From Woeseiaceae bacterium (GTDB taxonomy: Bacteria; Pseudomonadota; Gammaproteobacteria; Steroidobacterales; Woeseiaceae): a stretch of 64,000 nt of DNA. The notes under the pieces were generated by a model that was not told the DNA's origin, searched no databases, and saw only the letters and a program-made list of their open reading frames with translations. Shown one piece after another: positions 14,406 to 61,285 of the stretch (within the stretch, counting starts at the first letter, position 1; each line of letters starts with the position of its first letter). Made by a program: the position numbers and the translations under genes. Where the stretch lies: the NCBI GenBank assembly GCA_028280615.1, contig JANQLK010000052.1, positions 124,001-188,000 of the forward strand. The letters run 5' to 3'.

Positions 14406-14421
14406 ATATATAATATATTAT
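14406..14421 (-). promoter_or_regulatory. AT-only shared site 1 (core ATATATTATATA)
   Basis: The plus strand reads ATATATAATATATTAT. It holds the 12-bp core common to six intergenic sites and the perfect 12-bp palindrome ATAATATATTAT. It lies about 140 bp upstream of the operon starting at 14264 and 113 bp before the plus-strand gene at 14534. An operator for the GntR/FCD regulator at 23664 is the favoured reading; a -10-type promoter element is the alternative. Confidence 0.65.
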
Positions 14422-14533
14422 TTGTTTCGTTTGTGACAGACGAGAGAGGCGCAAAAGTCCGAGGCCAGCGTGGAGGAACGCGGTCGCGGTAAACTGTCAG
14501 CCGCAATCCCATGCGGCCCGGATCGAAAACAGA

Positions 14534-14989
14534 TTGAGCCACGCAAACAAGACAACCGGAACGTTCACGCTGGCAGCTTTCGCTGTCCTGGCTCTGGTTC
14601 CGCTGCCTGGCCAGACGCAGACGGTGGAGGCCGACGACAGAGCGGCCGTCGTGCGCCAGTTTCTGGAGGCTTTCAATGCACAGGACGCGGCAGCGATGGC
14701 GGCGCTGGTTACCGATGACGTCCAGTGGCTGTCAGTCAGCGACGGAGCGACCGCCGTCGAAGTCGAAGGCCGATCTGCCCTGACCGCCGCGATGACGGAC
14801 TACTTCAGTGCCTGCCCGAGCTGCCGTTCCGAGATCGCGAGCCTCATGTCCAGCCGTGAGCGCGTTAGCGTCGTCGAAGTGGCCAGCTGGGATGGGGCCG
14901 ACGGACCTCGGTCGCAGCGCTCGATGGCGGTCTACGAGTTTTCGGGGGCGTTGATCCGGCGCGTGTATTATTTTCCCGAGGAGCCGTAG
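14534..14989 (+). CDS. Secreted SnoaL/NTF2-like domain protein
   Basis: A 151-residue protein with a signal peptide (LAAFAVLALVPLPGQTQT) and a SnoaL-like fold signature: RAAVVRQFLEAFNAQDAAAMAALVTDDVQWL, seen as shorter blocks, followed by the terminal strand RRVYYF. The only start that keeps the signal peptide is TTG at 14534 with a weak upstream ribosome site; no ATG or GTG was found in frame. SnoaL-like proteins are small binding or cyclase-type domains and the exact role cannot be told. It stands alone on the plus strand. Confidence 0.65.
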   Translation: MSHANKTTGTFTLAAFAVLALVPLPGQTQTVEADDRAAVVRQFLEAFNAQDAAAMAALVTDDVQWLSVSDGATAVEVEGRSALTAAMTDYFSACPSCRSEIASLMSSRERVSVVEVASWDGADGPRSQRSMAVYEFSGALIRRVYYFPEEP

Positions 14990-15089
14990 CGACGACTGCT
15001 GGCGCGTCCACACGCCCTGAACCCGGCGTCAGTTGTTGACCCGGAGCGGCCATTGAATCAGCTGTGGCTGAATAACGATACGACTCGAT

Positions 15090-15623
15090 ATGGATTCGCA
15101 GAAACTGCATGACTGGCTTCAGGTAATCGGTATCGCCGCGGTCGTAGCCTCGTTGATCTTTGTCGGAATGCAGATAAAGCAATCAGATGAAATCGCACTG
15201 GCGGAAGTTCTCGAAAGCGCGGCGGCGCGAGCGATCGAGGAGCGCGCGTTGGTCGCGGCACATTCGGATACGTGGCACAAGGCTTGTCTCGGTGAACAGC
15301 TGACCGCACAAGAGCGCTTGATCGCCGCCAACCTGTACATGAACTACCTGCAAAACAACTTCAACTCCTGGGTTCGATTGCAACAGACAGGAATCGGAGC
15401 GGTCGGCGGTCAAATGTTTGTTGATGCTTACGCGGCGAATCTTCACAGATACACCGGCTTCAAGCAGATGGCATTGTCTTTCGCGGAATGGCGCGAACTC
15501 GGCGCGCGCTTTCATGGAGAGTTGGCGAAGGAGTACCGTACGGCGGTCCTTCGGCGGGTCAGCGAGCTCGAGGAGCTGGAACCCAATCCATCAGCAGATA
15601 TCATGTGGTGTGGGGTCAGATAG
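15090..15623 (+). CDS. Hypothetical protein with one N-terminal membrane helix
   Basis: A 177-residue protein. Residues about 12-29 form one transmembrane helix (VIGIAAVVASLIFVGMQI) followed by a mostly helical, charged region rich in Glu, Ala and Trp, so it is probably an inner-membrane protein with a periplasmic or cytoplasmic helical domain. I do not assign a function. The ATG at 15090 has no clear Shine-Dalgarno sequence. It lies 100 nt after the SnoaL-like gene and is convergent with the GGT gene; the 162 nt between them show no strong terminator. Confidence 0.6.
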   Translation: MDSQKLHDWLQVIGIAAVVASLIFVGMQIKQSDEIALAEVLESAAARAIEERALVAAHSDTWHKACLGEQLTAQERLIAANLYMNYLQNNFNSWVRLQQTGIGAVGGQMFVDAYAANLHRYTGFKQMALSFAEWRELGARFHGELAKEYRTAVLRRVSELEELEPNPSADIMWCGVR

Positions 15624-15785: not shown

Positions 15786-17495
15786 CTAGTACCCCTCCGC
15801 ATGCCCCCCACGCCGCGGATCGGCAACGCCGGTCAGCGTCCCGCCGTCCTCGCTCTCCATGACGAGCTGGATCGATCCCATGTGCCAGTTGTACGGCGCG
15901 CTCAGGTCCACGTCGACGCCGCGTGCCTCGAGTCCCGCGAGGACGTCGTCCGGAATTCGCGATTCGATGTGCAGGCTGTCATAGCGGCCGTAGCCCTGGA
16001 AGCGCGGCGCGTCGACGGCGTCATACGGCGCCATGCCGTAGCCGAGCATGTTGATGAGCGTGAGCGCGACGGCGCGCGAAGACAGGCCCGGAGAGCCGAG
16101 CGCGAGCCACGGCGTGCCGTCGTCCCGGACCGCCATGAGCGCCGGGAACGGCGTGATGACGCGGCGTCCCAGGCCTTTGCCGGTACCCGGGAACGTGTTG
16201 CCCGAATTGACGCCGACGCCGTCCACGGTGAGTCCCGTGCCGAACGTGTCGCCGTAGACCGTGTGCGTCATCGAGACCCAGTTGCCTTGCTGATCGACGA
16301 TAACGAGGTGGTTCGTGTCGGTGTGCATGAGCGCCCTGTACGGGTCCGGATGGCCCGCTTCCCGGACTGTCGGCGCCTTCTTCATTGCGGCCGCGTGCTC
16401 AACCACGATCGGCTCACCGGCGTTGATGACATTCGCGAGATGCTCGCCGAAGGACGGCGACAGCAGCAGGTCGGTCGGCACGTCGGCCGTGCGCGGATCG
16501 GCCGTGAAGCTTGCCGAGAAGTGCCGCGCCTGCTCGTAGGCGCGGCGAATCACCCACAGGCTCTCGGCCGATTCGGTGTAGTGGCCCATGGCCTCGAGAT
16601 CGAAGTGCTCGAGAATGTTGAAGATCATTCCGTTGAGGATGCCGGCCGTGGATGCCGGCGGTGCACCTCTGAGCCTCGCGCCCCTGTACTCGAACTCGAG
16701 CGGCTTCACCCAGCGCGGTTCGTAGTTCGAGAGTTCGCCAAGCGTGATATCACCGCCCGTGCGGTTGGTCTCGGCAACAAAGCGCTCGGCCCATTCGCCG
16801 TCGGTGAAGTAGCTCGGACCTTCCTCGGCGAGGCGCGCCAGGGTATTCGCGAGCTCAGGTTGCCGAACGACGTCGCCGACCGGGGGCACGAAGCCGTCGG
16901 GCATCCACTTCGCTTTGGATGCCTCGTGTGCGCCGATGCGCTCGTAGGCCGCGCTCATTTCGCCGTACAGGAACGAGTACATCGGGAAACCGTCGCTGGC
17001 GGCCTCGATCGCGGGGCCGAAGTAGGTTGCCCACGGCCGGCTGCCGTAGCGCGCCGCCGCCGCGGCCATGCCCGGCACCGTACCGGGCACACCGATACGC
17101 CTGCCGGAGGTCGTCCCCACGCCGGCCGGTCTCGCCATCGAGCGCGCCGCGGGCGCGTTCGCGGTGTGGTCGAGTTCGGCGTCGAGGTAGATGAGCTCGC
17201 CGGTCTCGGCCCAGTAGATCAGCCCGCCCATGCCGCCCGCCAGAGTCGACATCTGCGGCTCGATCACGTGCTGCAGCGGAATCGCCGTCAGCATCGCGTC
17301 GACGGCGTTTCCGCCGTCCGCCAGCACGTCGAGGATCGCCTGCGTAACCTCGGGATGCGACGATGACGCCATCGCGCGGCGCGCCTCCGCGACGGGCTTC
17401 GCACCCTGCTCTGGCCGTTGCGCCTCCGCCGTCGGCGTCACGAGGCAGAATGCCAGCGTTGCGGCAAGTGTGGAATTGAGTACGGGAGCTTTCAT
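15786..17495 (-). CDS. ggt: Gamma-glutamyltransferase / gamma-glutamyl hydrolase
   Basis: A 569-residue exported protein of normal GGT length. A signal peptide ends at AEAQ. The N-terminal half carries SSHPEVTQAILDVLADGGNAVDA and the GGMGG region. The autocatalytic cleavage site is around DTNHLVIVD with Thr394 as the expected nucleophile, and the small subunit holds the conserved NSGNTFPGTGKG and LGSPGLSSR regions. GGT splits gamma-glutamyl amide bonds, e.g. in glutathione, in the periplasm. AAGGA lies 8 nt before the ATG. It is the last gene of the operon starting with 4-hydroxyproline epimerase, 32 nt behind the M24 lipoprotein, which suggests a wider peptide-scavenging role. Confidence 0.92.
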   Translation of the reverse strand: MKAPVLNSTLAATLAFCLVTPTAEAQRPEQGAKPVAEARRAMASSSHPEVTQAILDVLADGGNAVDAMLTAIPLQHVIEPQMSTLAGGMGGLIYWAETGELIYLDAELDHTANAPAARSMARPAGVGTTSGRRIGVPGTVPGMAAAAARYGSRPWATYFGPAIEAASDGFPMYSFLYGEMSAAYERIGAHEASKAKWMPDGFVPPVGDVVRQPELANTLARLAEEGPSYFTDGEWAERFVAETNRTGGDITLGELSNYEPRWVKPLEFEYRGARLRGAPPASTAGILNGMIFNILEHFDLEAMGHYTESAESLWVIRRAYEQARHFSASFTADPRTADVPTDLLLSPSFGEHLANVINAGEPIVVEHAAAMKKAPTVREAGHPDPYRALMHTDTNHLVIVDQQGNWVSMTHTVYGDTFGTGLTVDGVGVNSGNTFPGTGKGLGRRVITPFPALMAVRDDGTPWLALGSPGLSSRAVALTLINMLGYGMAPYDAVDAPRFQGYGRYDSLHIESRIPDDVLAGLEARGVDVDLSAPYNWHMGSIQLVMESEDGGTLTGVADPRRGGHAEGY

Positions 17496-17527: not shown

Positions 17528-18958
17528 TCAGTTGGCCGGGGACTCGATCAGGAACAGCTCCTCCTGGATCGGAATCATGTAGCGCGGCCCCTCCGGAGTA
17601 ACCTGTGCGGTCTCCTCGAAACGTGCGTAGTAGGTCTTGCCGCCCCATTCGGGGATCGGCGTACTGACGTGAAACTCAATCGAGACCCACTCGTTCTCGG
17701 CGAGCGGGAAGCGCACCCGGTCGCCGTAGGCGAACGGGAAGTCCTGCGCGACGCGTGCGCCGATGTCATGGGCGACGTTGCCGACCGAGTGGCCGTAGAC
17801 GCCCATCTCGGGCTGGTTCGCGGTCGTGTCGTCGCCGGCCGTATCCGGGCCCGCGACGCGGTAGCCGCGAGCCTCGGCTTCCTCGTTGATCGACGCGTGG
17901 ATCTCGTGGCCGACATTGCCGACCTGCATGCGCTCGGCATAGACCTCGGCCATCTCCAGAGTGTCGCTCCAGGCCGAGGCGATCGATTCGGGCGTCACGG
18001 TCTCGCCGGGCGGCAGCACGTAGGCCGCGCGCTTGATGTCGACGGCGTAGCCCAGGTAACGCAGGCCGCCATCGATGCCGACGATGTCGCCCGGCTGTAG
18101 CGGCAGGTTCGGGTCGTGCACGGGCAGGTGTTCGCCCTCGCGAACGATGCGCACGGTGCCGTAACCCGTAAGGCCGAGCTCGAGCGCACGATCCTTGAGC
18201 CACCACGCGATATCGGCGCCGGTCGTCTCGCCGACCTCGACGTTGGCCGTGCTCAAGGCCTCCTGCTGCCAGCGTGCAGACCACTCCAGGAGCTGGGTGT
18301 ACAGTTCGGTCTCTTTCTTCGTGCGGGCCAGGCGGAAATCGCGCGTGACGAGCTCGGCCGATGCGAGCCGGCTCGCGTACTCGGGCCCGATCGTGTCGAC
18401 GAGGAAGTTGTGCAGGCCGACCGTCAGGCCGTCGGCCTCGGGCAGCGTGTGCGAGATGTTGATGCCGATCTTCTTCGGATCCTTGTCCTCGACGAGCTTT
18501 TTCAGATGCGGCGTCAGCCCGTCCTCGCTGTACCCGTAGTAAAGCGTTTCGTCGTACACCTGCGCGATGACCGAGTTGGCCGGCATGGCGTGCGAGCCGT
18601 AGTAGATCTTCTCGGGCGAGTCGCTGCCGTTGTCGTAGAAGATGAACGCCGCGCGCACGCCCGAAAAGCCGCCGCCGAGTTCGGTGTGCAGCGGCTCGTT
18701 GTTGTTCTCGCGGTCGAGCACGATCCACATGTCGAAGCCGTGATTGCGCATCGCGGGCAGCAGCGACGTCTCGAGCTTCTCGATGATCACGGCCTTTTGT
18801 ATCTCGAAGCGCTCCCTCGAGTCCGGGATGCCGTAGTCGGCGGCGGTCGGACGCGGCGGCTCGATGTCCGCACCGGCGTCGGCGGGCGGTGACGGCGGTG
18901 CGCAGGCCGCAAGCGCCAGGCCCGCGATCAGGATGAGAGAGTGTCGGTATGCGTTCAT
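17528..18958 (-). CDS. M24-family Xaa-Pro peptidase lipoprotein
   Basis: A 476-residue lipoprotein with the lipobox LAAC at Cys19. A creatinase-type N-terminal domain is followed by an M24 catalytic domain with the ligands in place: D296 (GIDGG), D307 (AVDIKR), a His in GHSVGNVAHD, E428 (SIEFH) and E448 (RFEET). Such enzymes split Xaa-Pro bonds with two divalent metals. The ATG at 18958 was preferred over one two codons upstream because GGGAG then has proper spacing. It sits 58 nt after the D-amino-acid dehydrogenase and 32 nt before ggt. Its membrane anchoring suggests trimming of prolyl or hydroxyprolyl peptides in the periplasm. Confidence 0.88.
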   Translation of the reverse strand: MNAYRHSLILIAGLALAACAPPSPPADAGADIEPPRPTAADYGIPDSRERFEIQKAVIIEKLETSLLPAMRNHGFDMWIVLDRENNNEPLHTELGGGFSGVRAAFIFYDNGSDSPEKIYYGSHAMPANSVIAQVYDETLYYGYSEDGLTPHLKKLVEDKDPKKIGINISHTLPEADGLTVGLHNFLVDTIGPEYASRLASAELVTRDFRLARTKKETELYTQLLEWSARWQQEALSTANVEVGETTGADIAWWLKDRALELGLTGYGTVRIVREGEHLPVHDPNLPLQPGDIVGIDGGLRYLGYAVDIKRAAYVLPPGETVTPESIASAWSDTLEMAEVYAERMQVGNVGHEIHASINEEAEARGYRVAGPDTAGDDTTANQPEMGVYGHSVGNVAHDIGARVAQDFPFAYGDRVRFPLAENEWVSIEFHVSTPIPEWGGKTYYARFEETAQVTPEGPRYMIPIQEELFLIESPAN

Positions 18959-19016
18959 GGTCATGCTCCCGCTCGCATTGTTGGTTTCGGAAAAGTATGG
19001 CACACGCCGCCGCGGC

Positions 19017-20270
19017 TCACTGGAAGCGGTCGACGCGGAACGGCGTGAGGTCGATATCCGACTCTCCCGTCGTCGCAAGCGACGCGACGACATCGGCCGT
19101 CACCCCGGCGAGCGTCAATCCGAGGTGCTGGTGGCCGAAGGCGAATATCAGCTTCGGGTCGTCGGGGCTCGAGCCGATGACGGGAAGATGGTCGGGCATG
19201 GACGGCCGGAAGCCCATCCACTCCGATCGGTCGTTCAGGTCCGAGTTCGGCAGGAGCTCGCTCAGGTGGCGGTTGAGCGTCTTCAGGCGAGCCGGACTCG
19301 GCGGCTGCTCGAGTCCGCCGAATTCGACGAAGCCCGTGATCCGTAGCCCGCCGTCGAGCGGTGTCATGATGGTCATGCGATCCAGGGACGCGACGGCGAC
19401 GTCGAACGCACCGCGCCAGCCGTTGGCCTGGACATGATAGCCGCGCTCGGTGTCGAGCGGCACGTCGAATCCGGCCTGGCGGGCGAGCTCTTTCGACCAC
19501 GCCCCGGCGCAAACGACGACGTGCGCGGCCTCGAGCTCGTTGTCTGCGAACAGAAGCCGGTAGCGGCCACGCCCGGATCGTTCGATCTGCCTGACCTCGT
19601 CTTGCACGAGCCGTCCGCCCGCACTGACGAAGGCCCCGAGCAGTCCGCGGCAGATCGCGAGCGGGTCGCCGACATGGCCCGAATCCCGCACGTTGATGGC
19701 GCCGATGTTCGGTGCGAGCTCGGGCGCAATCTCGCGGACCCTGTCGGTCTCGAGCCACACGGCGTCGATGCCATGCTCGAGCATCCTCGTGAGCTGCCGC
19801 TCGGCCGCTCGCCTGAGCGCGTCGTCTTCGACGAGAACCAGGTGGCCGCGGGCGTTGACTTGCTGCGGAACACCGGCGTCCTCGCACAGGCTTTCGAACG
19901 CCGGCAGCGCGCGACGCTGCAGCGACGTCAACGCCGCCGTGCCGCGCCGGTAAGCCGACGGCCGCGATGCCCACACGAACCGCGCCAGCCATGGCAGCGC
20001 CTCGAGCGCGTATGCAGGGCGTACGGAAAGCGGCCGGTTCTTCGCCAGCATCAGCCTCGGCGCGTTGAGTACGGTCTCGGGCGACGCGAGCGGGAACACC
20101 TGCTCGGTCGCGATGTGCCCCGCGTTGCCGAACGAACAGCCCATGCCGGGCTCGCCGCGCTCGACCAGCACGACGCCGGGAAGCGCTTGGGCGAGCCTGA
20201 AGGCGACGGCGAGCCCGATGATGCCGGCGCCGACAATGACCGTCGGCAGCTGCTCGTCGTTCGCGGTCAT
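19017..20270 (-). CDS. FAD-dependent D-amino-acid dehydrogenase, probably cis-4-hydroxy-D-proline dehydrogenase
   Basis: A 417-residue DadA-like flavoprotein. The Rossmann motif VIVGAGIIGLAVAF near the N-terminus binds FAD, followed by the DAO-type fold and the C-terminal FGHQHLGLTLA segment. It lies 41 nt downstream of 4-hydroxyproline epimerase. In known trans-4-hydroxyproline pathways the enzyme at this position oxidises cis-4-hydroxy-D-proline to 1-pyrroline-4-hydroxy-2-carboxylate. A general D-amino-acid dehydrogenase is the alternative. The start is the ATG at 20270; the open frame further upstream overlaps the epimerase gene and is not needed. No signal peptide, so cytoplasmic. Confidence 0.85.
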   Translation of the reverse strand: MTANDEQLPTVIVGAGIIGLAVAFRLAQALPGVVLVERGEPGMGCSFGNAGHIATEQVFPLASPETVLNAPRLMLAKNRPLSVRPAYALEALPWLARFVWASRPSAYRRGTAALTSLQRRALPAFESLCEDAGVPQQVNARGHLVLVEDDALRRAAERQLTRMLEHGIDAVWLETDRVREIAPELAPNIGAINVRDSGHVGDPLAICRGLLGAFVSAGGRLVQDEVRQIERSGRGRYRLLFADNELEAAHVVVCAGAWSKELARQAGFDVPLDTERGYHVQANGWRGAFDVAVASLDRMTIMTPLDGGLRITGFVEFGGLEQPPSPARLKTLNRHLSELLPNSDLNDRSEWMGFRPSMPDHLPVIGSSPDDPKLIFAFGHQHLGLTLAGVTADVVASLATTGESDIDLTPFRVDRFQ

Positions 20271-20311: not shown

Positions 20312-21268
20312 TCAGTCGGCCAGACCGTAGCGGAACGGGTCGGCCGCGTCGATCAGGAGCGTCGATTCCGCAGTAACGTAGGCGCTGCCCGTGATCACGG
20401 GCCGGATACCGTCGCCCGACGTGTCGGCCACGGCTTCGAAGACACTGCCCGTAATGCTCTCCTGCCGCCACGTGTCCCCGGGCCTGATCTTGCCGTCGGC
20501 AACGAGGCAGGCGAGCTTGGCGCTCGTGCCGGTACCGCAGGGCGAACGGTCGTAGGCCCGGCCCGGGCACAATACGAAGTTTCGGCTGTCGGCCTTGGCG
20601 GCATCGCTCGGCGGGCCGAACAGTTCGATGTGATCGATGAGCGCGTCCCCTGCGCCGCGTATGCCGGCGGCCTCGAGCGCATTGCGCACGGCCCAGGTGT
20701 AGTCGATCAGCTCGTCGACGTTTGCGAGTTCGAGTGTTTGTCCATGGTCGGAGACCAGGTAGAACCAGTTCCCGCCCCAGGCGACGTCGCCCGTGACCTT
20801 GCCGACTCCCGGTACGTCGACCGTCACGGCCTGCCTGTGCCGGTAGCTCTCGACGTTGCCGACGCTGACGCGGTTCCTGTCGTGCAACGCCACCGTGATC
20901 GTTCCTGGCGGCGTCTCGATCGTATGCGTGCCGATGTCGAGCTTGCCCAGGTGCGCGAGTGTGACGGCGAGGCCGATCGAGCCATGGCCGCACATGCCGA
21001 GATATGAGACGTTGTTGAAAAATATGACGCCGGCAGCGTTTTCTTTGTCGACAGGTTCGGCGAGCAGCGCGCCGACGAGCACGTCCGAGCCGCGTGGTTC
21101 GTTGACGATCGCCGAGCGCAGGTGATCGTAGTGCTCGCGCATGACCTCGAGCCGCTCGGCCATCGAGCCCGTGCCGAGATCCGGTCCGTGAGCGACCACG
21201 ACCCGTGTCGGTTCACCACCCGTATGCGAATCGACGACGCGAATCGAAGCTTCAAAATCGGTAGCCAG
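20312..21268 (-). CDS. 4-hydroxyproline 2-epimerase (proline racemase family), apparent CTG start
   Basis: A 318-residue proline-racemase-family enzyme with both catalytic cysteines: C93 in GMCGHGSIG and C244 in [11 protein letters not shown]. The N-terminal signature [12 protein letters not shown] lies upstream of any ATG or GTG that would preserve it; the first GTG (21199) would cut that motif off. A CTG at 21268, preceded by GGAGA with six bases between and an in-frame stop just upstream, gives a normal 318 residues. The Cys/Cys pair fits 4-hydroxyproline epimerase or proline racemase; the adjacent D-amino-acid dehydrogenase plus distant DapA-like and aldehyde dehydrogenase genes favour the former. 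First gene of its operon. Confidence 0.87.
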
Positions 21269-21300: not shown

Positions 21301-21316
21301 AAAATATATTATATAT
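21301..21316 (+). promoter_or_regulatory. AT-only shared site 2, between divergent units
   Basis: Reads AAAATATATTATATAT and contains the exact core ATATATTATATA at 21304-21315. It lies 33 bp upstream of the CTG start of the epimerase operon and 36 bp before the ATG of the M24 gene, so it can control both. On the plus strand TTGGAC (21287-21292) lies 17 bp before TATATA (21310-21315), so the site may overlap a sigma-70 -10 box. Confidence 0.65.
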
Positions 21317-21351: not shown

Positions 21352-22569
21352 ATGACTGAAGGTGTCGGAACATCGAATATGCAGGCGGAGCTTGAACGGC
21401 TCGGCGCGCTTCACTCATCGATGCCGCCCTTGCCCGACGAGGAGTATGACGGCCGTGTGGCGCGTGCCGCAATGCTTATGCACGAGCACGACCTCGCGGC
21501 CGTCTACCTCAGCGCGAGTAGCAGCCTGCGCTACTTCACCGGCGTCAAGTGGTCGGCCACCGAGCGTCTGGTCGGCGCGGTGATGACGCCTGACGGCGCC
21601 GTTCGCTACGTCCTGCCCTCGTTCGAGGCGGGCACGTTCGAGGCCAACATGCGCGGCGCTGGCGAGCTGCACCTCTGGCAGGAACACGAATCGCCGTTCG
21701 ACCTGGTCATCGAGGTCCTCGCGGAAGCCGGCGCCGCGGGCGGCAGAATCGGTATCGATGAGGCGACGCCGTTTCATCACTTCGGGGAACTCCGGGAAGC
21801 GGGCAGGGGCTATGAGTTCGTCGACGCGCGGCCCGTAACGGCCGGGTGCAGGACGCGGAAGTCGGCGCGCGAGATAGAGCTGATCCAGGCCGCGATGGAC
21901 AAAACGCTCGAAGTCCACAAAAGCGCCGCGGCCGCGCTCGCGCCGGGCGTGACCAGCGCCGCGATGATCGACTTCATCGATCGGGCACACAGGACGATCG
22001 GCTCGGACCGCGGTTCGACTTTCTGCGCCGTGCAGTTCGGCGAGGCGACCGCCTACCCGCACGGCATTCCGGGCGTGCAGACGCTGGCGGAAGACGACAT
22101 CGTGCTGATCGACACGGGCTGCCAGATGCACGGCTACCACTCGGACATCACGCGAACCTACGTGCTCGGCGAGCCGACCGACAGGCACCGGACCGTCTGG
22201 GAAGCCGAGAAAGCCGCGCAGGCCAGAGCCTTCGAGACGGCGAAGCCGGGGGTTCGTTGCGGCGACGTCGACATCGCCGCGAGGAGCTACCTCGAGTCGT
22301 TGGGCTACGGGCCGGACTACGCGGTGCCGGGCCTTCCGCACCGCACCGGGCACGGCATCGGCCTCGACATCCACGAGTGGCCGTACCTCGTGCGCAGCGA
22401 CGACACGCCGCTCGCGAAGGGCATGTGTTTCAGCAACGAACCCATGCTCTGCCTGTACGGCGAATTCGGCGTGCGCCTCGAGGACCACTTCTACATGGAC
22501 GACGACGGGGCGAGGTGGTTTACCCAACCCAGCCATTCGATCGACGACCCCTTCGGCCTCAACGCCTGA
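21352..22569 (+). CDS. Cytoplasmic M24-family Xaa-Pro dipeptidase/aminopeptidase
   Basis: A 405-residue M24 peptidase without a signal peptide. The creatinase-type N-domain (residues about 35-165) precedes the catalytic domain with all expected ligands: D254 (LIDTG), D265 (SDITRT), H334 (TGHGIG), E363 (SNEP) and E377 (RLEDHF). GGGAG is 7 nt before the ATG. It would split Xaa-Pro or Xaa-hydroxyproline dipeptides after uptake. It is divergent from the 4-hydroxyproline epimerase operon, shares its intergenic control site, and is followed 37 nt later by a second proline-racemase homologue, so a role in proline/hydroxyproline release is well supported by context. Confidence 0.9.
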   Translation: MTEGVGTSNMQAELERLGALHSSMPPLPDEEYDGRVARAAMLMHEHDLAAVYLSASSSLRYFTGVKWSATERLVGAVMTPDGAVRYVLPSFEAGTFEANMRGAGELHLWQEHESPFDLVIEVLAEAGAAGGRIGIDEATPFHHFGELREAGRGYEFVDARPVTAGCRTRKSAREIELIQAAMDKTLEVHKSAAAALAPGVTSAAMIDFIDRAHRTIGSDRGSTFCAVQFGEATAYPHGIPGVQTLAEDDIVLIDTGCQMHGYHSDITRTYVLGEPTDRHRTVWEAEKAAQARAFETAKPGVRCGDVDIAARSYLESLGYGPDYAVPGLPHRTGHGIGLDIHEWPYLVRSDDTPLAKGMCFSNEPMLCLYGEFGVRLEDHFYMDDDGARWFTQPSHSIDDPFGLNA

Positions 22570-22606: not shown

Positions 22607-23644
22607 ATGCGCGATTTTACCCAGGGCTCGATAGAGATCATCGGCTGCCACGCCGAAGGCGAGGTCGGCGACGTCATCGTGGCGGGCGTGTCCCCGCCGC
22701 CCGGCGACACGCTCTGGGAGCAGTCGCGCTGGATCGCCGAGGACAACCGGCTGCGCAACTTCGTCTTGAACGAACCGCGCGGCGGCGTGTTCCGGCACGT
22801 CAACCTGCTCGTGCCGGCCGTTGCCGAAGACGCTGCCATGGGTTTCATCGTCATGGAACCCGAAGACACGCCGCCGATGTCCGGATCGAACTCGATCTGC
22901 GTGTCCACGGTATTGCTTGAGACGGGCATCGTTCCGATGCAGGAGCCTCAGACACGTTTCGTCATCGAGGCGCCGGGCGGAACCGTGGACGTCGTTGCGG
23001 ACTGCAAGGACGGCAAGGCCCAACGGATAACCGTACGCAACATCGCCTCGTTCGCGGACCGGCTGGATGCCCGTCTCGATGTCGAAGGCATCGGTACGAT
23101 CGAGGTCGATACGGCCTACGGCGGAGATTCCTTCGTCATCGTCCGGGCGGCCGAGCTCGGCTTCGCGGTCACACCCGACGAGGCGCGCGACCTCTGTGAG
23201 GTGGGCAGGAAGATCCGTGAGGCGGCGGAACAGCAGCTCGGCTTTTCTCACCCCACGCTGCCGGAGATGGACTACATTTCGTTCTGCATGTTCGCGTTGC
23301 CCGTCGTCGAGGAAGACGGCATCAACACGAGCAGGAACGCCGTCATCGTCCGGCCCGGCAAGGTCGACCGTTCTCCGACGGGCACGGGGCTTTCGGCGCG
23401 TATGGCCGTCATGCACGCGCGCGGTCTGATGAAGCCCGGCGACAGGCTGCGGACGCGCTCGATCATCGGCTCTGAGTTCATCGGCAGCATCGACCGCGAA
23501 GTCCAGGTGGGCTCGAAGACGGGCATTCGTCCGACCGTGTCGGGCCGCGCCTGGATCACGGGCCGCAAGTTCATGAGCCTCGACCCCGGCGACCCATGGC
23601 CGGAGGGCTACCGGCTCAGTGACACCTGGCCGAGGATGGACTAG
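22607..23644 (+). CDS. Proline-racemase-family protein with Ser/Thr in place of both catalytic Cys
   Basis: A 345-residue member of the proline racemase/hydroxyproline epimerase family. The first catalytic position reads PMSGSNSIC (S92 instead of Cys) and the second [12 protein letters not shown] (T258 instead of Cys). Cys/Cys or Ser/Cys pairs are known for epimerases and Cys/Thr for trans-3-hydroxy-L-proline dehydratase; the Ser/Thr pair here matches none of these. The usual DSHTGGEP motif is replaced by [11 protein letters not shown]. It follows the cytoplasmic M24 peptidase and is convergent with GntR A. A dehydratase- or isomerase-like reaction on an imino acid is possible, but the substrate is not known. 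Confidence 0.82.
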
Positions 23645-23663: not shown

Positions 23664-24320
23664 CTACCGGGCGAGCTCCTCGATGAGATCCTCCTCCACG
23701 CCAACCGTATGCTTGTGCATCAGCGCCTTGGCGGCGCGCTTGTCGCGCTTGCGGCACAGCTCGATCAGTTCCAGGTGCTCGGCTTCGGCGCGGGCAATGT
23801 GGTCGGCGTTGAGAAGCTGCAGCCTGATATAGCGATCGCAGTTGGCGTGCAGCTTCGCGAGGATTTTCATCGTTTCGGGCCGGTTCGCCGGGGCGTAAAG
23901 CGCGGAATGGAACTCCCAGTTGTACTCGGTCCAGTGATCGATCTCGCGCCGGTTGTCGAGTGCGGCATCGAAGCGGCCGAGAATTTGCTCGGCTTTGGCG
24001 AGATCGTCGTCGGTGATTCTGTCCATTGCCTGGCCGATCAGGTCGGTTTCGATGATTCGCCTGAGGTGTATCCACTCGAGTGCCTTGTCGAGCGTGAGTT
24101 CGGTGGCGATTGCGCCCCGGCGAGCCTTGAGCTCGACGAGGCCCTCGGCCTCGAGCTGCCGAAGGGCCTCGCGGACCGGGATGATGCTCGTGCCAAAGGA
24201 CTTGGCGATGGCGTCCTGCCGGAGTGGTTCGCCCCCGGCGATTTCCCGGTTCAGGATCTGTTCGCGGATTTCAGCCGCGACGGACTGCGCAATGGTTAGA
24301 GGTCGTTTCGGATGCGGCAT
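23664..24320 (-). CDS. GntR-family transcriptional regulator, FCD subgroup (regulator A)
   Basis: A 218-residue regulator. Residues about 10-75 form a winged helix-turn-helix (GGEPLRQDAIAKSFGTSIIPVREALRQLEAEG in shorter blocks), and the rest is an all-helical FCD ligand-binding domain. FCD regulators often sense organic or amino acids and bind short palindromes. The ATG at 24320 has GGGGAGGA five bases upstream; the frame extends to 24401 without support. AT-only site 3 lies about 170 bp upstream, between this gene and TonB receptor A, so autoregulation and control of the six-site regulon are plausible but inferred from position only. Confidence 0.9.
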   Translation of the reverse strand: MPHPKRPLTIAQSVAAEIREQILNREIAGGEPLRQDAIAKSFGTSIIPVREALRQLEAEGLVELKARRGAIATELTLDKALEWIHLRRIIETDLIGQAMDRITDDDLAKAEQILGRFDAALDNRREIDHWTEYNWEFHSALYAPANRPETMKILAKLHANCDRYIRLQLLNADHIARAEAEHLELIELCRKRDKRAAKALMHKHTVGVEEDLIEELAR

Positions 24321-24471
24321 ATTCCTCCCCGGGGCGCCGCCAAGCCAGCCGCGGCGCCGATTGGGCAGCCCGACTGTAGCAGGACCGGGCCCGCGCGGCA
24401 CGGACTACTGCCGCCGCCGGGCATATCGGCACATACCCGCGTCGATATTCTCAAGCGGAATTATTTACGTA

Positions 24472-24500
24472 GTGACATAGAACGAATTATATATTATATA
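24472..24500 (+). promoter_or_regulatory. Candidate sigma-70 promoter for TonB receptor A
   Basis: GTGACA (24472-24477), one base from the -35 consensus, is separated by 17 bp from TATATA (24495-24500). The -10 lies inside shared AT-only site 3, in the same register as the candidate promoter at site 2. A protein bound to the palindrome would block this promoter. Confidence 0.4.
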
Positions 24501-24501
24501 T
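24486..24501 (+). promoter_or_regulatory. AT-only shared site 3, next to GntR A and TonB receptor A
   Basis: Reads ATTATATATTATATAT with the exact core ATATATTATATA at 24489-24500 and the odd palindrome ATATAT-T-ATATAT at 24489-24501. Its place beside the regulator gene makes GntR A the first candidate to bind the whole set. Confidence 0.65.
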
Positions 24502-27655: not shown

Positions 27656-27698
27656 TCTTGCACGACGATAAACAGTCGTTTGACTGAGCACGACCCGA

Positions 27699-27732
27699 GC
27701 GCCGGCCTGAACTCAGGCCGGCGCTTTTTCTT
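27699..27732 (+). terminator. Rho-independent terminator after TonB receptor A
   Basis: The stem GCGCCGGCCTGA (27699-27710) pairs perfectly with TCAGGCCGGCGC (27713-27724) around a two-base centre and is followed by TTTTTCTT. It lies between the receptor and the next plus-strand gene, so it would end or reduce transcription before the amidohydrolase. Confidence 0.9.
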
Positions 27733-27760
27733 ACTCGACCTTTTTTTGGGGAGAACCGAC

Positions 27761-30518: not shown

Positions 30519-30547
30519 TGGGTGGCTTTCCGGGTACGTTGTCGTTC

Positions 30548-39620: not shown

Positions 39621-39635
39621 TATATAATATATTAT
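39621..39635 (-). promoter_or_regulatory. AT-only shared site 4
   Basis: The plus strand reads TATATAATATATTAT; it holds the common core and the perfect palindrome ATAATATATTAT, as in sites 1 and 6. It lies in the 199-bp gap upstream of the DapA-like gene and marks the head of the six-gene operon 39500-29415. No clear -35 box stands 17 bp from it, so an operator reading is preferred here. Confidence 0.65.
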
Positions 39636-48940: not shown

Positions 48941-48943
48941 CGG

Positions 48944-50713
48944 CTAAGGGTCACCGTAGAACCGCCAGTTGCTCTCGTAATCGGCCGTTAGCGGAAGCCC
49001 GAGAAGCCGGGCACGCACGAGTTCGACGGGCATCCGGCCACCCTGCATGATCGCGTCATGGAACTCGGTCGGCGTCATGAGCCCGGTGCCGACAATCTCG
49101 TCGTACAGCGCGCGGAATTGCAGCGCGCCGGTCATGTAGGCGATCTGGTAGAGCGGCGCATCGCGCGTCGTGCGGCGCACTTCGGCCTCGGCGTTGGCGC
49201 GCTCGTGGCCCACGCGTTCGACCAAAAAGTCGATGCACTCCTCGGGCGTCCAGCGGCCGAGGTGATAGTTCAGCGAGAAGATGATCCTGGCGGCGCGGTG
49301 CAACCGCCAGAACAGCATGCCGATGCGGTCGGGATCGTTGCGCGGGAAGTCGGTCTCGAGGAGCACGAACTCCCAGTACAGCGCCCAGCCTTCGCCCCAG
49401 AACGGCGTGCGGGCGAGGTCGCCGCGGTGCGGATTGAAGCGCCGCGTCATAAAGCCCTGCATATGGTGGCCGGGCACGAGCTCGTGCTGCACGGTGCCGA
49501 AGTTGAAGTGCGGCGTGTTGCCGCGCTGGCTCATGCGCTTGTCCTGGTGGCGCATCGTGTTGGTCGGATAGGAGACGCGCGTCACCTCGCCGCCCGTAAA
49601 GAACGGGTTGACGAGCTGGCGCTCGGGCGTCTGCATCGCGAGCCGCCACACTTCGCGCGACAGCGGCGGCAGCGTGATGACGTCCATGTTCTCGATGTAG
49701 TTCTCGGAATAGTCGCCGATCTCGAAGATCCGCCAGGGCTTCTCGCCGGGCGGCGGCGCGAGCTCCTTCGTGTACTCGAGCGCGGCGAGCCAGTCGTCGC
49801 CGAAGCCCATGTCGTTGGAGACGAGCCGGAACTGTTCCTCGATCCACGCGAACTCGGTCTCGCCGATGCGGATCATCTCGCGGGCCGTGTACGGGATCAT
49901 CTCGACCGTGAGGTCGGCCTTAAGCCCCTCGGCGAGCACGGGGTCGCCGATGATCGGCGCGACCTCGCCCTCGACGATGCCGACGAGGTGGGCGTTGATC
50001 GCATCCCGGTACGCGACGAGGCGCTCGACGACGCGGCCGTAGGGTTCGGGGACCCAGAAGTTGTACATCGGGTCGTAGCCGTCGTAGAACGTGTTCCAGT
50101 CGGCGAGTACCTCGCGAAGGTGTTCGACCTGGTTCGCGGCGCGCCAGGCTACGACCGGGCTCACGTCGATATCGGCATCACCGCTTTCGAGTGCCGCGGT
50201 CAGCCCGGCGAGCTGGTCCGCGACGACGTCCAGGGATTCGGCCGCCGTGCGCGGATGCACCCGGATCCTGTCATGCCGGTCCTCCTGGAACTTCCGGAGC
50301 GTGTCGCTGAACGGCAGGAGCGGCGCGATCGCCTGGCCGCGCTGCTCCTCGAGCGCGAGCATCTCGATGTTGTAGTCGATGCGGTGCTTGAGCGCGACGT
50401 AGTCGATCTGGCCCTCGAAGTTCAGGTCCTCGAAGTCGAGTTCCCGCAGGCGCTCGCGCCATCCCAGGTGGAACATCGACAGGCGTTCGATGCGCGCCGG
50501 TGAGTACTCGACCGGATAGCGCCGCTCGATGGCCTCGCGGTCGAGGACATAGCGGCTGACGGCATTGCGCAGATCGCTCTCGCCGCGCGCGAACGCAACG
50601 AGTGAATCGAGTGCGGGCGGGTCGTCGGCCCAGCCGGGCGGCAGCACGAGGTTCGGGTTCTCTGCGATGGTCGCGGCGGGGGCGAGCAGCAACAGGAGCA
50701 GGGCACGTTTCAT
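48944..50713 (-). CDS. DUF885-family exported metalloprotein, probable peptidase
   Basis: A 589-residue protein with a signal peptide (ALLLLLLAPAATIA). It has the DUF885 motif HELVPGHHM (H410, E411, H416, H417) and the downstream acidic GEGWALYWE (E441), a zinc-peptidase-like arrangement in a mostly helical protein. GGAG precedes the ATG at 7 nt. Family members are often described as carboxypeptidase-like, but few are characterised. It is divergent from the S10 carboxypeptidase, with AT-only site 5 in the gap, and convergent with the M24B gene. Periplasmic peptide hydrolysis is likely. Confidence 0.83.
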   Translation of the reverse strand: MKRALLLLLLAPAATIAENPNLVLPPGWADDPPALDSLVAFARGESDLRNAVSRYVLDREAIERRYPVEYSPARIERLSMFHLGWRERLRELDFEDLNFEGQIDYVALKHRIDYNIEMLALEEQRGQAIAPLLPFSDTLRKFQEDRHDRIRVHPRTAAESLDVVADQLAGLTAALESGDADIDVSPVVAWRAANQVEHLREVLADWNTFYDGYDPMYNFWVPEPYGRVVERLVAYRDAINAHLVGIVEGEVAPIIGDPVLAEGLKADLTVEMIPYTAREMIRIGETEFAWIEEQFRLVSNDMGFGDDWLAALEYTKELAPPPGEKPWRIFEIGDYSENYIENMDVITLPPLSREVWRLAMQTPERQLVNPFFTGGEVTRVSYPTNTMRHQDKRMSQRGNTPHFNFGTVQHELVPGHHMQGFMTRRFNPHRGDLARTPFWGEGWALYWEFVLLETDFPRNDPDRIGMLFWRLHRAARIIFSLNYHLGRWTPEECIDFLVERVGHERANAEAEVRRTTRDAPLYQIAYMTGALQFRALYDEIVGTGLMTPTEFHDAIMQGGRMPVELVRARLLGLPLTADYESNWRFYGDP

Positions 50714-50770: not shown

Positions 50771-50784
50771 AATATATAATATAT
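50771..50784. promoter_or_regulatory. AT-only shared site 5
   Basis: Reads AATATATAATATAT and contains the odd palindrome ATATAT-A-ATATAT (50772-50784) with the core TATATAATATAT at 50773-50784. It matches the ATAATATATTAT palindrome less well than the others. It lies 58 bp upstream of the DUF885 gene and 71 bp upstream of the S10 gene. Confidence 0.6.
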
Positions 50785-50855: not shown

Positions 50856-52391
50856 ATGTTGCGATACGGTTGGACAATCCTGGTGTCACTGTTGTTCTCG
50901 CTGAACGCGTTCGCCGACGATCATGAAACCGGCGAATCCGGCGACGGCATGCAGGCCGAAGAGCCGAAAGCCGAATCGGTCACGACCGAACACAGCGTGC
51001 GCATCGACGGCAGGACGATTCGCTACACGGCGACGGCCGGGCTCATGCCGATACGCAACGACGACAAGAAGGCCATCGGCCTGTTCGGCTATACGGCGTA
51101 CTTCAAGCAGGGCGTCGAGGACCCGTCGACGCGGCCGATCCTGTTCGCCTACAACGGCGGCCCGGGCTCGGCGTCGATCTGGCTGCACATGGGCGTGCTC
51201 GGCCCGCGCATCATCCCGGTAAACGACACCGAGGTCACGGGTCCGGCGCCGTACGGCGCCGTCAACAACGAACACAGTATCCTCGACGTTGCCGACCTCG
51301 TCATGATGGACCCGGTCGGCACGGGTTACGCGATCCTCGCGGGCGAGGGCAAGCCCGAGGACTTCTGGGGCGTCGACCCGGACATAGCGGCAGCCTCGCA
51401 GTTCATCTCGCGCTTCATCACCGACAACAACCGCTGGCAGTCGCCGAAGTTCGTACTCGGCGAAAGCTACGGCGGCGTTCGCACGGGCGGCGTCGCGTAT
51501 CGGCTGCTCGACAAGTACGGCATGGGCCTGAACGGCGTGATTCTCGTGTCGCCGTTCATGGATGCCGCGGCCGCGCGCGACCGCTTCGCCATGGACCTGC
51601 CGCATGCGCTGTACCTGCCGACGCTTGCGGCGACGGCCTGGTACCACAACGCGATCGCCGATCGGCCCGACGACCTCGAGGCCTTCGTCGACGAGGTCGA
51701 ACGCTTCGCGCTCGAGGAGTACTCGCCGGCGCTCCTGAAGGGCACGTCGCTGCCCGCCGACGAACGCGCCGCCGTGATCCGCAAGCTGTCGGCCTACACG
51801 GGCTTAAGCGAAACATACTGGGATCATGCCAATTTGCGCGTCGCGCACTTCGCCTTCACGCAGGAACTGCTGCGCGACGAGGACGTCGTCGTCGGCCGCG
51901 TCGATTCGCGTTTCAAGGGTCGAAGCCTCAACCGCACGGCCGAGACGATGCAGTACGATCCGTTCGGCGCCTCGGTCGGCCCGGCCTTCAAGGCGGGTTT
52001 CATGCACTATCTGACCAACGACCTGGGCTTCAAGCAGGACGATCGCGATTACGTCGTGTCGGGGGGGCTGTGGTCCAACTGGGACTGGCTGCACACGCTG
52101 CCGAGCGGTCAGCAGACGCTGATAACCAACACGGCGATCGATCTCGCGACGACGATGACGCTGTACCCGCCCATGAAGGTGCTCGTACAACAGGGCTACT
52201 TCGACCTCGCGACGCCGCACTTCGTCTGGGAGTACGTGCTGTCGCACATGGACCTCGACGAGGAACAGCTGTCCAGAATCACGACCGAGATGTACGAGTC
52301 GGGCCACATGATGTACGTACACCCGCCTTCGCTCCTGAAGTACAAACAGGATCTCGCGCGGTTCATCACCGAGAACGACGGCATCGACTGA
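50856..52391 (+). CDS. Exported S10-family serine carboxypeptidase
   Basis: A 511-residue alpha/beta-hydrolase peptidase of family S10. Signal peptide ends NAFA. The oxyanion region is NGGPGSAS, the nucleophile S204 lies in GESYGG, and the acid and His follow in GYFDLATP and SGHMMYVH. S10 enzymes act at acidic to neutral pH and remove C-terminal residues, some including proline. A GGGGGA site lies upstream of the ATG at 50856; the longer frame upstream crosses site 5. It precedes the sulfatase by 10 nt. Confidence 0.9.
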   Translation: MLRYGWTILVSLLFSLNAFADDHETGESGDGMQAEEPKAESVTTEHSVRIDGRTIRYTATAGLMPIRNDDKKAIGLFGYTAYFKQGVEDPSTRPILFAYNGGPGSASIWLHMGVLGPRIIPVNDTEVTGPAPYGAVNNEHSILDVADLVMMDPVGTGYAILAGEGKPEDFWGVDPDIAAASQFISRFITDNNRWQSPKFVLGESYGGVRTGGVAYRLLDKYGMGLNGVILVSPFMDAAAARDRFAMDLPHALYLPTLAATAWYHNAIADRPDDLEAFVDEVERFALEEYSPALLKGTSLPADERAAVIRKLSAYTGLSETYWDHANLRVAHFAFTQELLRDEDVVVGRVDSRFKGRSLNRTAETMQYDPFGASVGPAFKAGFMHYLTNDLGFKQDDRDYVVSGGLWSNWDWLHTLPSGQQTLITNTAIDLATTMTLYPPMKVLVQQGYFDLATPHFVWEYVLSHMDLDEEQLSRITTEMYESGHMMYVHPPSLLKYKQDLARFITENDGID

Positions 52392-57878: not shown

Positions 57879-57879
57879 C

Positions 57880-59538
<1,659 letters not shown>

Positions 59539-59598
59539 GTGGCACCTCCAGTGCTGTTTGTCACGTCCCCCGCCGAGGCGGATGCACGGTTCAAGGGC

Positions 59599-61245
59599 TT
59601 AGCGTTCGTCGAACGTCCACTCCGCGAGCAGACGCGTATTCGGGTCGAGCAGGATACGGACCGGTTCGGTCGGCACGTCGACTTCGAGGCTCGCACCCTC
59701 CGCCGTGAGCGGCATCGACACGATATCGGGCACGGGGCTGTCGGCGAAGTACACGGCGGCCTCAAGCGTCAGCTCGGGCGTACCGTCCACGTGACCGCGG
59801 CGCTCGAGGTCGATGCGAACCTTGCCGTTCGAATAACGCCAGCCGCCGTCGAGCGTTACGACGCTGCCGGTCCTGAGCCAGTAGTCGAAATAGTCGCCCA
59901 GCTCGCAGCCGCAGGCCGTTTCCATCACGCGCTGGAAGTCTTCGGTCGTCGCGGTCGAGTTGCGGTACTTCCGATAGTAGTCCTGGATGCCCCGCCACCA
60001 GACATCGTCGCCGACCAGCATCCTCAACATGTGCAGTATCCAGGCGCCCTTCTGGTAGATCTGGCGCGTCGTGACATTAGCCATGTCCTGAAGATCGGCG
60101 TGCCGGACCCGGTAATCCGGGTTCTCGGCCGAGAATTCGAAAGCCTGCTTGCGAGCGTCTTCCATGTACCGCGCGAAGTCGGCCTGGCCGTTGGCATGTT
60201 CGAAATACAGGTAGGTGAAGTAGGTCGTGAAACCCTCGCTGAGCCAGACGTCATCCCACGTGGCCTCGGTCACCGAATTGCCGAACCAGTGGTGGGCGAC
60301 CTCGTGCACGATCACGGTCTGCCAGCGTCGCGTGCGCTGCCCCGTGACCGACTTGTCTCCGTACAGTATCGCCGACGCCGCTTCCATGCCGCCGCCGACG
60401 CTGTTCGACTGGACGTTGGCGAGCTTCTCGTATTCGAAAGGGCCGACGTAGGACGAGTAAAACGCAAGCGCCTCCTTGGTGGGCACGGCGAAGTCGTAGA
60501 AGCCAGCCTCCCGGTCCTGGCGGTAGACCCAGGTCTCGATCGGTTTGTGGTCGAACTCGCCGACGCGCTGCACGGCGAACTCGGCGGCGCCGACAACGTA
60601 CAGCCACGGAGAAACGGGCACCGACTGCTTCCAGTGGGTCAGCGTGCGGCCCGAATCGAGGTTGCTGCGTTCCACCTGCAGGCCGTTGGAGATGACCTGA
60701 AGTCGGCTCGGCGCCGTGACCAGGAACTCCGACGTCGCCTTGTCGGCAATGTGGTCAACCGTCGCCAACCAGTGCCGCGCCTTGTTCGGCCAGTTGTCAC
60801 TGAAATAGGTTCGGTCACCGTGCTTGTTCGGCCCGATGACGAGCCCGGCGTCGGGGACACCGCTGTAGCGGAGCGTGACCGACAGCCGGCCATCGGCCGC
60901 GTCAGCGGCAGGCACGTCGATGCGCAGCACATCGTCATCGTGGTAGTACAGGAGCGCCTCGCCGTCCCGCGTCACGGAGGCGACCTCCATGCCGCGGCCA
61001 TCGCGTTCGCTGCTCCGTTTGACGAGATCGAGAGCCAGTTCGTTTACGTTCGCGTCCAGGATTCTCACGTCGACCCTCGCCTGCATATCGATGGCGTCGC
61101 GGTCGTCGGACAGGACGAGTTCGAAGCGGTAGTGCTCGACGTCGATGCGATCGTTGACGGGGTAAGGGTCGGCGGAAACGCTGCGGACGAGCAGCAGCAG
61201 TGTCAGAGCACTTAATTGTTGCCGGGTCGTGCCGCTTGCTGTCAT
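59599..61245 (-). CDS. Exported short M1-family zinc aminopeptidase
   Basis: A 548-residue M1 peptidase with a signal peptide ending SVSAD. Zinc ligands are H314, H318 in HEVAHHWFGN and E337 in LSEGFTTY; E315 is the general base. The substrate-end motif, usually GAMEN, reads GGGMEAA. The chain lacks the long C-terminal helical domain of PepN-like enzymes, so it should be a compact form. AT-only site 6 lies 26 bp upstream of the ATG. It is the first gene of a five-gene operon. Confidence 0.9.
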   Translation of the reverse strand: MTASGTTRQQLSALTLLLLVRSVSADPYPVNDRIDVEHYRFELVLSDDRDAIDMQARVDVRILDANVNELALDLVKRSSERDGRGMEVASVTRDGEALLYYHDDDVLRIDVPAADAADGRLSVTLRYSGVPDAGLVIGPNKHGDRTYFSDNWPNKARHWLATVDHIADKATSEFLVTAPSRLQVISNGLQVERSNLDSGRTLTHWKQSVPVSPWLYVVGAAEFAVQRVGEFDHKPIETWVYRQDREAGFYDFAVPTKEALAFYSSYVGPFEYEKLANVQSNSVGGGMEAASAILYGDKSVTGQRTRRWQTVIVHEVAHHWFGNSVTEATWDDVWLSEGFTTYFTYLYFEHANGQADFARYMEDARKQAFEFSAENPDYRVRHADLQDMANVTTRQIYQKGAWILHMLRMLVGDDVWWRGIQDYYRKYRNSTATTEDFQRVMETACGCELGDYFDYWLRTGSVVTLDGGWRYSNGKVRIDLERRGHVDGTPELTLEAAVYFADSPVPDIVSMPLTAEGASLEVDVPTEPVRILLDPNTRLLAEWTFDER

Positions 61246-61270
61246 CGCGATCGGCTGTGCTGCGGAAAGA

Positions 61271-61285
61271 ATAATATATTATATA
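61271..61285. promoter_or_regulatory. AT-only shared site 6
   Basis: Reads ATAATATATTATATA; contains the core ATATATTATATA at 61274-61285 and the perfect palindrome ATAATATATTAT at 61271-61282. It is 26 bp upstream of the M1 aminopeptidase start, close enough to overlap its promoter or leader, and 115 bp upstream of the HdeD-like gene. Confidence 0.65.

Follow-up and report, generated by a model that had tools for sequence, protein, structure and literature searches.

GntR-family regulators control hydroxyproline and peptide genes in the HypR regulons of Proteobacteria, whose motifs change in a taxon-specific manner (PMC5343134; here and below, published systems are described from the accessible parts of the cited papers). 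Besides the regulator, these regulons contain hypE, hypO, hypD and hypH, and in some taxa a TonB receptor, proline peptidases, collagenases and ornithine cyclodeaminase; autoregulation is usual (PMC5343134). Streptomyces coelicolor HypR, an FCD-type GntR protein, represses both collagen-degradation and hydroxyproline genes, and its site in its own promoter covers the -10 region (PMC6608401), as is proposed here. We describe a candidate regulon of HypR-type content in a Woeseiaceae bacterium (GCA_028280615.1, contig JANQLK010000052.1, positions 124,001 to 188,000). This stretch of 64,000 nucleotides, hereafter the window, contains six intergenic copies of an A/T-only palindrome, ATATAT-W-ATATAT, together with the gene for an FCD-type GntR protein, GntR A.

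We propose, with a probability of about 0.87, that this element is the operator through which GntR A controls proline/hydroxyproline-peptide genes, and that it lost its G and C residues after replacement of the recognition-helix arginine. Three lines of sequence comparison support a single regulon whose one operator is read by GntR A: co-occurrence of protein and site across genomes; the position of sites before orthologous genes; and co-variation of recognition-helix residue and operator base. Beyond these, we infer that the protein binds the element, that it represses rather than activates, what kind of ligand it has and which way the change went.

The window operator derives from the GntR type of operator, and GntR-controlled hydroxyproline/peptide regulons are already known (PMC5343134). 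Like operators of the FadR subfamily it is an A/T-rich palindrome, and the operator of its Arg-bearing sister orthologs has TTGT and ACAA outer ends (PMC4494728). Unlike those operators, the sister form spaces GT and AC by 9 nucleotides rather than 2-3, and the window's own clade lacks both the GT/AC boxes and the G-contacting Arg (PMC4494728). HypR sites have a GT/AC distance of 2 nucleotides (PMC4494728); the GntR protein encoded beside the hyp genes of Sinorhizobium meliloti is nearer to a second regulator of the window, GntR B. The S. coelicolor HypR site, TACAATGTCAC, contains G and C and is of unclear symmetry, unlike the window's, and the likeness to that system comes from its description rather than from protein sequence (PMC6608401). 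An A/T-only operator nevertheless has precedent in BioR, a GntR protein with the nearly G/C-free palindrome TTATMKATAA; BioR governs a biotin regulon, its palindrome is shorter, and the likeness is one of operators, not of compared proteins (PMC4494728).

A literature search, with most subscription papers, figures and supplements with motif logos outside it, gave among the matches listed no report of an A/T-only operator, a lost Arg, a 3-hydroxyproline branch or a two-regulator arrangement in such a regulon. Among the matches listed for the letters of the 12-mer and 13-mer, none concerned proline or hydroxyproline by title (one concerned xylan regulators of Caldicellulosiruptorales). A search on Woeseia, hydroxyproline and peptide found none, and matches on AT-rich operators and the recognition helix were off the point by title.

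A rare palindrome between genes

The original prediction placed an exact 12-mer at six intergenic coordinates beside peptide and hydroxyproline genes; all six copies are at those coordinates and intergenic by our gene set. Read with its flanks, the motif is a 13-bp palindrome, exact in four of the six sites and altered by one mismatch in the other two:

Copy 1, 14406..14418: ATATATAATATAT, overlapped 7 bp further on by a two-mismatch copy; between amidohydrolase 2 (minus) and SnoaL (plus).
Copy 2, 21304..21316: ATATATTATATAT; between HypE-HypO-M24 peptidase b-gamma-glutamyltranspeptidase (GGT) (minus) and M24 peptidase c-trans-3-hydroxy-L-proline dehydratase (T3LHypD) (plus); equivalent position in genome G098.
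Copy 3, 24489..24501: ATATATTATATAT; between GntR A (minus) and TonB receptor A (plus); equivalent position in G098.
Copy 4, 39620..39632: one mismatch; before the HypD-aldehyde dehydrogenase (AldDH) genes (minus); equivalent position in G047, G232 and G211.
Copy 5, 50772..50784: ATATATAATATAT; between DUF885 (minus) and the S10 carboxypeptidase (plus); G098 has separate sites before its S10 and DUF885 orthologs.
Copy 6, 61274..61286: one mismatch; upstream of the M1 peptidase gene (minus), 29 bp away.

All six lie 29-221 bp from neighbouring gene ends, in a hand-picked gene set with a non-coding fraction of about 0.10. The claimed palindromic fits also stand: five copies match ATAATATATTAT with zero or one mismatch, the exception being 50772, and all six match ATATAT-W-ATATAT with at most one. 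When 18 GntR A-clade sites are aligned, the core, ATATATWATATAT, is near-invariant; positions -10/-9 are mostly AA and positions +9/+10 mostly TT, and the whole spans about 21 bp. Some sites carry a second, overlapping copy shifted by 7 bp (14406/14413; L121:10434/10441; cores 8002/8009 of L166; C13:22698/22705 in the same genome as the window; L130:12603/12610).

The predicted rarity was borne out. None of 100 dinucleotide-preserving shuffles of the window contains the 12-mer, and the genome (4,565,866 bases in 58 contigs) has seven exact copies, six inside the window (binomial P = 5e-11 for at least six of seven landing in 64 kb, overstated for reasons given below). On these two counts we reject a chance origin. 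A matrix scan of the window gives no match beyond the six sites, and genome-wide ATATATWATATAT with at most one mismatch occurs in nine places: the six sites and one each on contigs C40, C30 and C45. The refuting case named in the original prediction, many more copies at random or at housekeeping promoters, therefore fails. Two-mismatch places outside the window number eight; the neighbourhoods examined were those of two overlapping places on C13 and one on C46.

The element accompanies GntR A across genomes

23664..24401, minus strand: GntR A, a GntR regulator of the FCD type, probably starting at 24320; its recognition helix has Ile73 (codon 24183-24185) at the position of FadR Arg45.

GntR A combines an N-terminal winged helix-turn-helix (Pfam GntR, 1.8e-15) with a C-terminal FCD domain (1.8e-21). 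Its structure model has a mean pLDDT (predicted local distance difference test) of 84, and in structure comparison it best resembles GntR/FCD proteins, VanR, TM0439 and FadR among them.

Co-occurrence was examined in an order sample of 396 genomes, the window's own included, with orthologs of GntR A defined by at least 68% identity. Seven genomes besides its own have an ortholog. The exact 13-mer is present in seven of the eight ortholog-bearing genomes, compared with 15 of the 388 others. With the own genome left out, the counts become 6/7 and 15/388 (Fisher P 7e-8); this P and the binomial one are overstated, because the change to Ile is a single evolutionary event and because sites of one genome, and related genomes, are not independent. 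Within the genus, again without the own genome, the 13-mer occurs in 5/6 ortholog-bearing genomes compared with 1/66. The contig that encodes GntR A itself carries the site in five genomes (G098, G047, G232, G211 and G282); in G282, G203 and G238 the ortholog lies on a short contig. In a class-wide sample of 369 genomes searched at E 1e-40, only G597 and G535 have a homolog besides the own genome, both bearing Arg in the recognition helix.

What of the 15 genomes that have the 13-mer and lack an ortholog? In 12 of them the site locus has a GC content of 0.21-0.39, a range in which base composition leads one to expect chance copies. The other three loci have values of 0.60, 0.61 and 0.69, and tblastn with the window's proteins yields at most a short-chain dehydrogenase there.

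Sites before orthologous genes

For four of the six window promoters, a counterpart stands before the orthologous gene in other species; the genes concerned are M24 peptidase c, GntR A/TonB receptor A, HypD, S10 and DUF885. For copies 14406 and 61274 no counterpart was seen in the loci examined, no separate search having been aimed at them. G098 has sites between amidohydrolase 4 and DUF885, between HypE and M24 peptidase c, between GntR A and TonB receptor A, and, on another contig, ahead of S10. The site precedes HypD in G047, G232 and G211, and in G282 it lies between HypE and a trans-3-hydroxyproline dehydratase.

These alignments bear on whether the element is a spreading mobile or tandem repeat that sits in promoters by accident. 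Such a repeat could give several near-identical copies in one region, but the 60-base flanks share nothing by eye outside the element, and in relatives the 13-mer is retained before orthologous genes amid diverged flanks. We regard this origin as exceedingly improbable.

The alphaproteobacterium Kordiimonas sediminis encodes a GntR A 60% identical to the window's. Its 3.2-Mb genome has a single exact copy, flanked by hypO and by hypD-hypE and distant from the GntR A gene (loci L063 and L166). The shared protein, and the identical operator at hyp genes, suggest transfer between classes.

One residue and one base

Position 38 of the helix-turn-helix, Arg45 in FadR, is the main G-contacting residue of the family (PMC4494728). 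GntR A lacks this Arg: Ile73 stands in its place, and the recognition helix (73-86) begins at that residue in the structure model. Among 42 rows of the tree, the nine that make up the GntR A clade all have Ile at this position, and the remaining 33 divide into Arg (18), Lys (11) and His (4). A tally over 67 loci gives R 37, K 11, I 10 (nine genomes), H 4, N 2, T 2 and L 1. The Ile rows form one clade (support 100/99), and the His rows a separate single clade (100/100).

Operators vary with the residue. Sister orthologs that keep the Arg carry TTGTATATWATATACAA-like sites with TTGT and ACAA, and in the window's clade A replaces the G. Such sites precede HypD in G275 and a proline-racemase-family gene in G275 and G295, and lie just past the GntR gene in G275, G295 and G271; wider neighbourhoods were taken for part of the matches. 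In G275 all four genomic matches with at most two mismatches are on its 22-kb GntR contig. Arg-bearing members from Vibrio and Pseudoalteromonas have related TTGTATA sites near hyp genes. With sites aligned on a neutral core, the tally at base -6 for the Ile clade (44 half-sites) is A 38, G 3, T 3, and for the Arg sister clade g22 (22 half-sites) G 21, A 1; these counts come from 22 and 11 core matches, respectively, overlapping and register-shifted ones included. It is G 4, T 1, A 1 in Arg-bearing G597 (n=6), and A 3, G 1 in His-bearing G180 (n=4). The TKGT and ACMA boxes are missing from the operator of the GntR A clade, with A/T there instead.

The His clade tells a similar story. Three of its four genomes (G225, G253 and G256) have A/T-only or nearly A/T-only cores ahead of a TonB-GntR gene pair. 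Those of G253 and G256 are the only exact cores in their genomes; the core in G225 has one mismatch, as do cores before a DHDPS gene in G180. Same-genus controls have an exact core in one of eight (G152). Three runs before TonB-GntR pairs (L198:13635-13657, L199:3336-3358 and L197:13686-13705) contain several overlapping cores at loci of 66-68% GC, with His at position 38.

Base-specific contacts of the family are tabulated at positions 28, 37, 38, 39, 58 and 59 (PMC4494728, Table 1); among these, 38 is the sole position that tells the Ile clade and its Arg sisters apart. We propose that the operator is without G and C because the GntR A clade replaced this Arg: with the change to Ile73, G at -6 and C at +6 of the TTGTATATWATATACAA-like form would have become A/T.

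Promoter architecture and a proposed mode of action

The element could be a mere strong -10 box, or a general AT-rich promoter element, without a dedicated regulator. On one strand it contains TATAAT, and -35-like hexamers at 15-19 bp exceed those of random flanks: 21 oriented promoters score 192.5 compared with 182.4 (standard deviation 3.2), none of 200 null sets scoring as high, although single promoters give a weak signal and the null set was taken from random genomic DNA. A general box is nonetheless very improbable, being contradicted by the seven exact copies in 4.57 Mb with six in one catabolic cluster, by the co-occurrence with GntR A, and by its appearance as TTGTATATAATATACAA in front of that same HypD gene in the Arg-bearing relative G275.

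Under the proposed model, a GntR A dimer would occupy the palindrome, which in several places comes as tandem copies spaced by 7 bp. The element supplies -10-like hexamers of the target promoters, where bound GntR A most likely stands in the way of RNA polymerase. Release of the protein, through binding of a proline-, hydroxyproline- or peptide-derived ligand to the FCD domain, would open jointly the genes for the TonB receptor, Xaa-Pro-type peptidases, amidohydrolases, and 4- and 3-hydroxyproline enzymes. By analogy with HypR, repression by covering the -10 region, relieved by a proline/hydroxyproline-derived ligand, is the likeliest mode (PMC6608401, PMC5343134). Action as an activator or dual regulator is unlikely. 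FCD-type activation is named in PMC6608401 (CitO, and the dual role of FadR), and the distance from element to gene start varies from 20 to 263 bp; but in the promoters examined the site is able to serve as -10, which suits repression, and those HypR proteins that have been studied act by repression (PMC6608401; for S. meliloti, a work cited in PMC5343134).

Observations on the other side

Besides the overstated P values and the weak -35 signal, several observations weigh against GntR A as reader of the element, or against residue 38 as the cause of its form. Some concern sites without the expected company. Seven of 18 site loci in ortholog-less genomes (six of them AT-rich) hold some homolog of a window protein, including GGT (28%) and an amidohydrolase (24%). 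Conversely, G238 has the ortholog and no exact site; its contig begins within the AldDH gene and therefore lacks the HypD promoter. Other sites are oddly placed: a one-mismatch copy in G098 (L121:9446) lies between the convergent ends of the T3LHypD and GntR A genes; the site in G203 precedes a tryptophan-halogenase/SapC/cupin operon; and the one-mismatch C45 site in the window's own genome stands before an RND efflux operon. No site with two or fewer mismatches is present at the Kordiimonas GntR A locus, and only one of four one-mismatch places in that genome is near a window-gene homolog (it precedes GGT, 30%), the other three having none. A strict promoter scan of 24300-24800 finds no promoter.

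Other observations concern the residue. The Ile clade also differs from its Arg sisters at the backbone-contact position 56 (FadR; L against F) and at 35, 36, 46, 57 and 68. Arg-bearing g48 loci have no core with at most one mismatch, only two- and three-mismatch versions of the long pattern. Finally, the operator comparison covers the Ile, Arg and His clades.

Gene content of the candidate regulon

The gene set next to the element copies reads as import and breakdown of proline/hydroxyproline-rich peptides:

12609..14264, minus: amidohydrolase 2; first gene after copy 1 (M24 peptidase a, 11102-12529, and more genes may follow).
15786..17495, minus: GGT family; same strand as HypE-HypO-M24 peptidase b.
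17528..19093, minus: M24 peptidase b; after HypE-HypO on the same strand.
19017..20240, minus: HypO-like FAD oxidoreductase, DAO family; NCBIfam matches under cut-off.
20312..21199, minus: HypE-like, proline racemase family.
21352..22569, plus: M24 peptidase c, Xaa-Pro dipeptidase-like; under NCBIfam cut-off.
22607..23644, plus: T3LHypD; over NCBIfam cut-off.
24722..27655, plus: TonB-dependent receptor A.
27680..29401, plus: amidohydrolase 3; best NCBIfam match Xaa-Pro dipeptidase, under cut-off.
29415..30554, minus: cis-3-hydroxy-L-proline dehydratase; over NCBIfam cut-off; putative member of the HypD unit.
33812..35200, minus: SNF-family sodium symporter.
35243..37048, minus: amidohydrolase 4; best NCBIfam match Xaa-Pro dipeptidase, under cut-off.
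37065..38588, minus: AldDH, presumably HypH-like from its context.
38592..39500, minus: HypD-like DHDPS-family protein.
48944..50713, minus: DUF885 protein.
50856..52391, plus: S10 serine carboxypeptidase with a signal-like N-terminus.
59599..61245, minus: M1 metallopeptidase, then amidohydrolase 5 (57880-59538).

Both 3-hydroxyproline dehydratases pass the NCBIfam cut-offs; the names HypE, HypO, HypD and AldDH come from family and context. For each of the four amidohydrolases tested (a set without amidohydrolase 5), the best NCBIfam match is the Xaa-Pro dipeptidase model, far under its cut-off. Sites before HypE-HypO, HypD-AldDH, TonB receptor A and M24 peptidase c give HypR-type content, with control predicted from the genes and the shared element. 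Compared with HypR regulons, the window's operator is A/T-only, and the candidate regulon extends to trans-3- and cis-3-hydroxyproline dehydratases, amidohydrolases, S10, M1, DUF885 and the symporter (PMC5343134).

The original prediction envisaged about 25 genes in one regulon with a new operator, and GntR A as its natural candidate regulator. The choice of regulator gains support from the 7/8 and 15/388 co-occurrence, the conserved positions and the co-variation of residue and base. One regulon and one operator likewise stand; the gene count hangs on putative operon calls, since operon extents and the membership of downstream genes are predicted from gene order, and the operator is not so much new as derived from the GntR type.

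The locus offers a concrete regulon candidate for the use of collagen-like, hydroxyproline-rich peptides in gammaproteobacterial Woeseiaceae, and predicts a pathway role for genes of unclear function: DUF885, S10, the amidohydrolases and the SNF symporter. With its operators paired, one form containing G/C and the other free of it, and with one residue as the leading candidate, it makes the evolution of regulator specificity accessible to direct testing across a whole regulon. Two neighbouring regions may be mentioned. A single open frame at 8065-11091 (minus) combines PD40 beta-propeller repeats with a cyclophilin-type prolyl isomerase domain, a combination that would fit a pathway for proline peptides. 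Immediately beyond the peptide cluster lie genes for PilW and type IV pilin-like proteins (2774-4631, minus).

A second regulator with sites of its own

42563..43279, plus strand: GntR B, second FCD regulator (recognition-helix Arg kept).

Might GntR B read the element instead? The GntR beside the hyp genes of S. meliloti pSymB, presumably hypR from its place, is 44% identical to GntR B and 27% to GntR A, which is not its ortholog. GntR A-type proteins (39-47% identity to GntR A) do lie beside hyp genes in Vibrio and Pseudoalteromonas. In 15 other genomes the best GntR B matches have 25-33% identity and for the most part prove to be the GntR A ortholog; at E 1e-15, two of these genomes give no match. 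GntR B moreover keeps Arg at position 38 and has TTGTATACAA-like sites before its own gene and TonB receptor B. Reading of the A/T-only element by GntR B is therefore highly unlikely.

The TTGTATACAA-like sites, each with one mismatch, are the only two in the window: 42514 (42514-42523, before GntR B) and 46313 (before TonB receptor B, in a region, 46279-46323, that has a TTTGTATGCCAA copy 33 bp off). The number expected is 0.07, and one of 100 shuffles contained two. They are possible operators of GntR B; the pattern TTGTMTRCAA is not specific for that role genome-wide (11 matches, two in the window). By the window matrix scan, the block of GntR B, TonB receptor B, an aminotransferase and M24 peptidases d, e and f has no copy of the A/T-only element. 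This sub-block is probably outside the GntR A regulon, which qualifies the single regulon first predicted, and the window probably holds two adjacent regulons with different operators.

A wider interpretation seems to us a little better than an even bet. Within one GntR orthologous group, the G-reading Arg would have given way to another residue at least twice, Ile in one case and His in another, multi-operon operators turning each time from a GT/AC-anchored to a G/C-free form. In the window, this would keep two paralogous hydroxyproline-type regulators orthogonal in adjacent gene blocks: GntR A with A/T-only sites, and GntR B with canonical TTGTxTxCAA sites.

Copies outside the window

The seventh exact copy (G000:C40:140336-140348; L053:12336) is 373 bp past a prolyl oligopeptidase gene and about 1.35 kb ahead of an amidohydrolase gene; it is on theme by its neighbours, yet not clearly a promoter element. 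Two more GntR homologs lie about 10 kb from it on the same contig. The one-mismatch copy on C30 (G000:C30:186000-201000; L058:4996-7786) fits poorly, being 86 bp past a DUF885 gene and at or inside the front of a DUF5916 frame. That DUF885 gene comes after an ornithine cyclodeaminase-family gene, a kind listed in HypR regulons. On C13, two overlapping two-mismatch elements (G000:C13:22698-22717; L060:7699-7718) precede a paralog of M24 peptidase c, a possible further member of the regulon.

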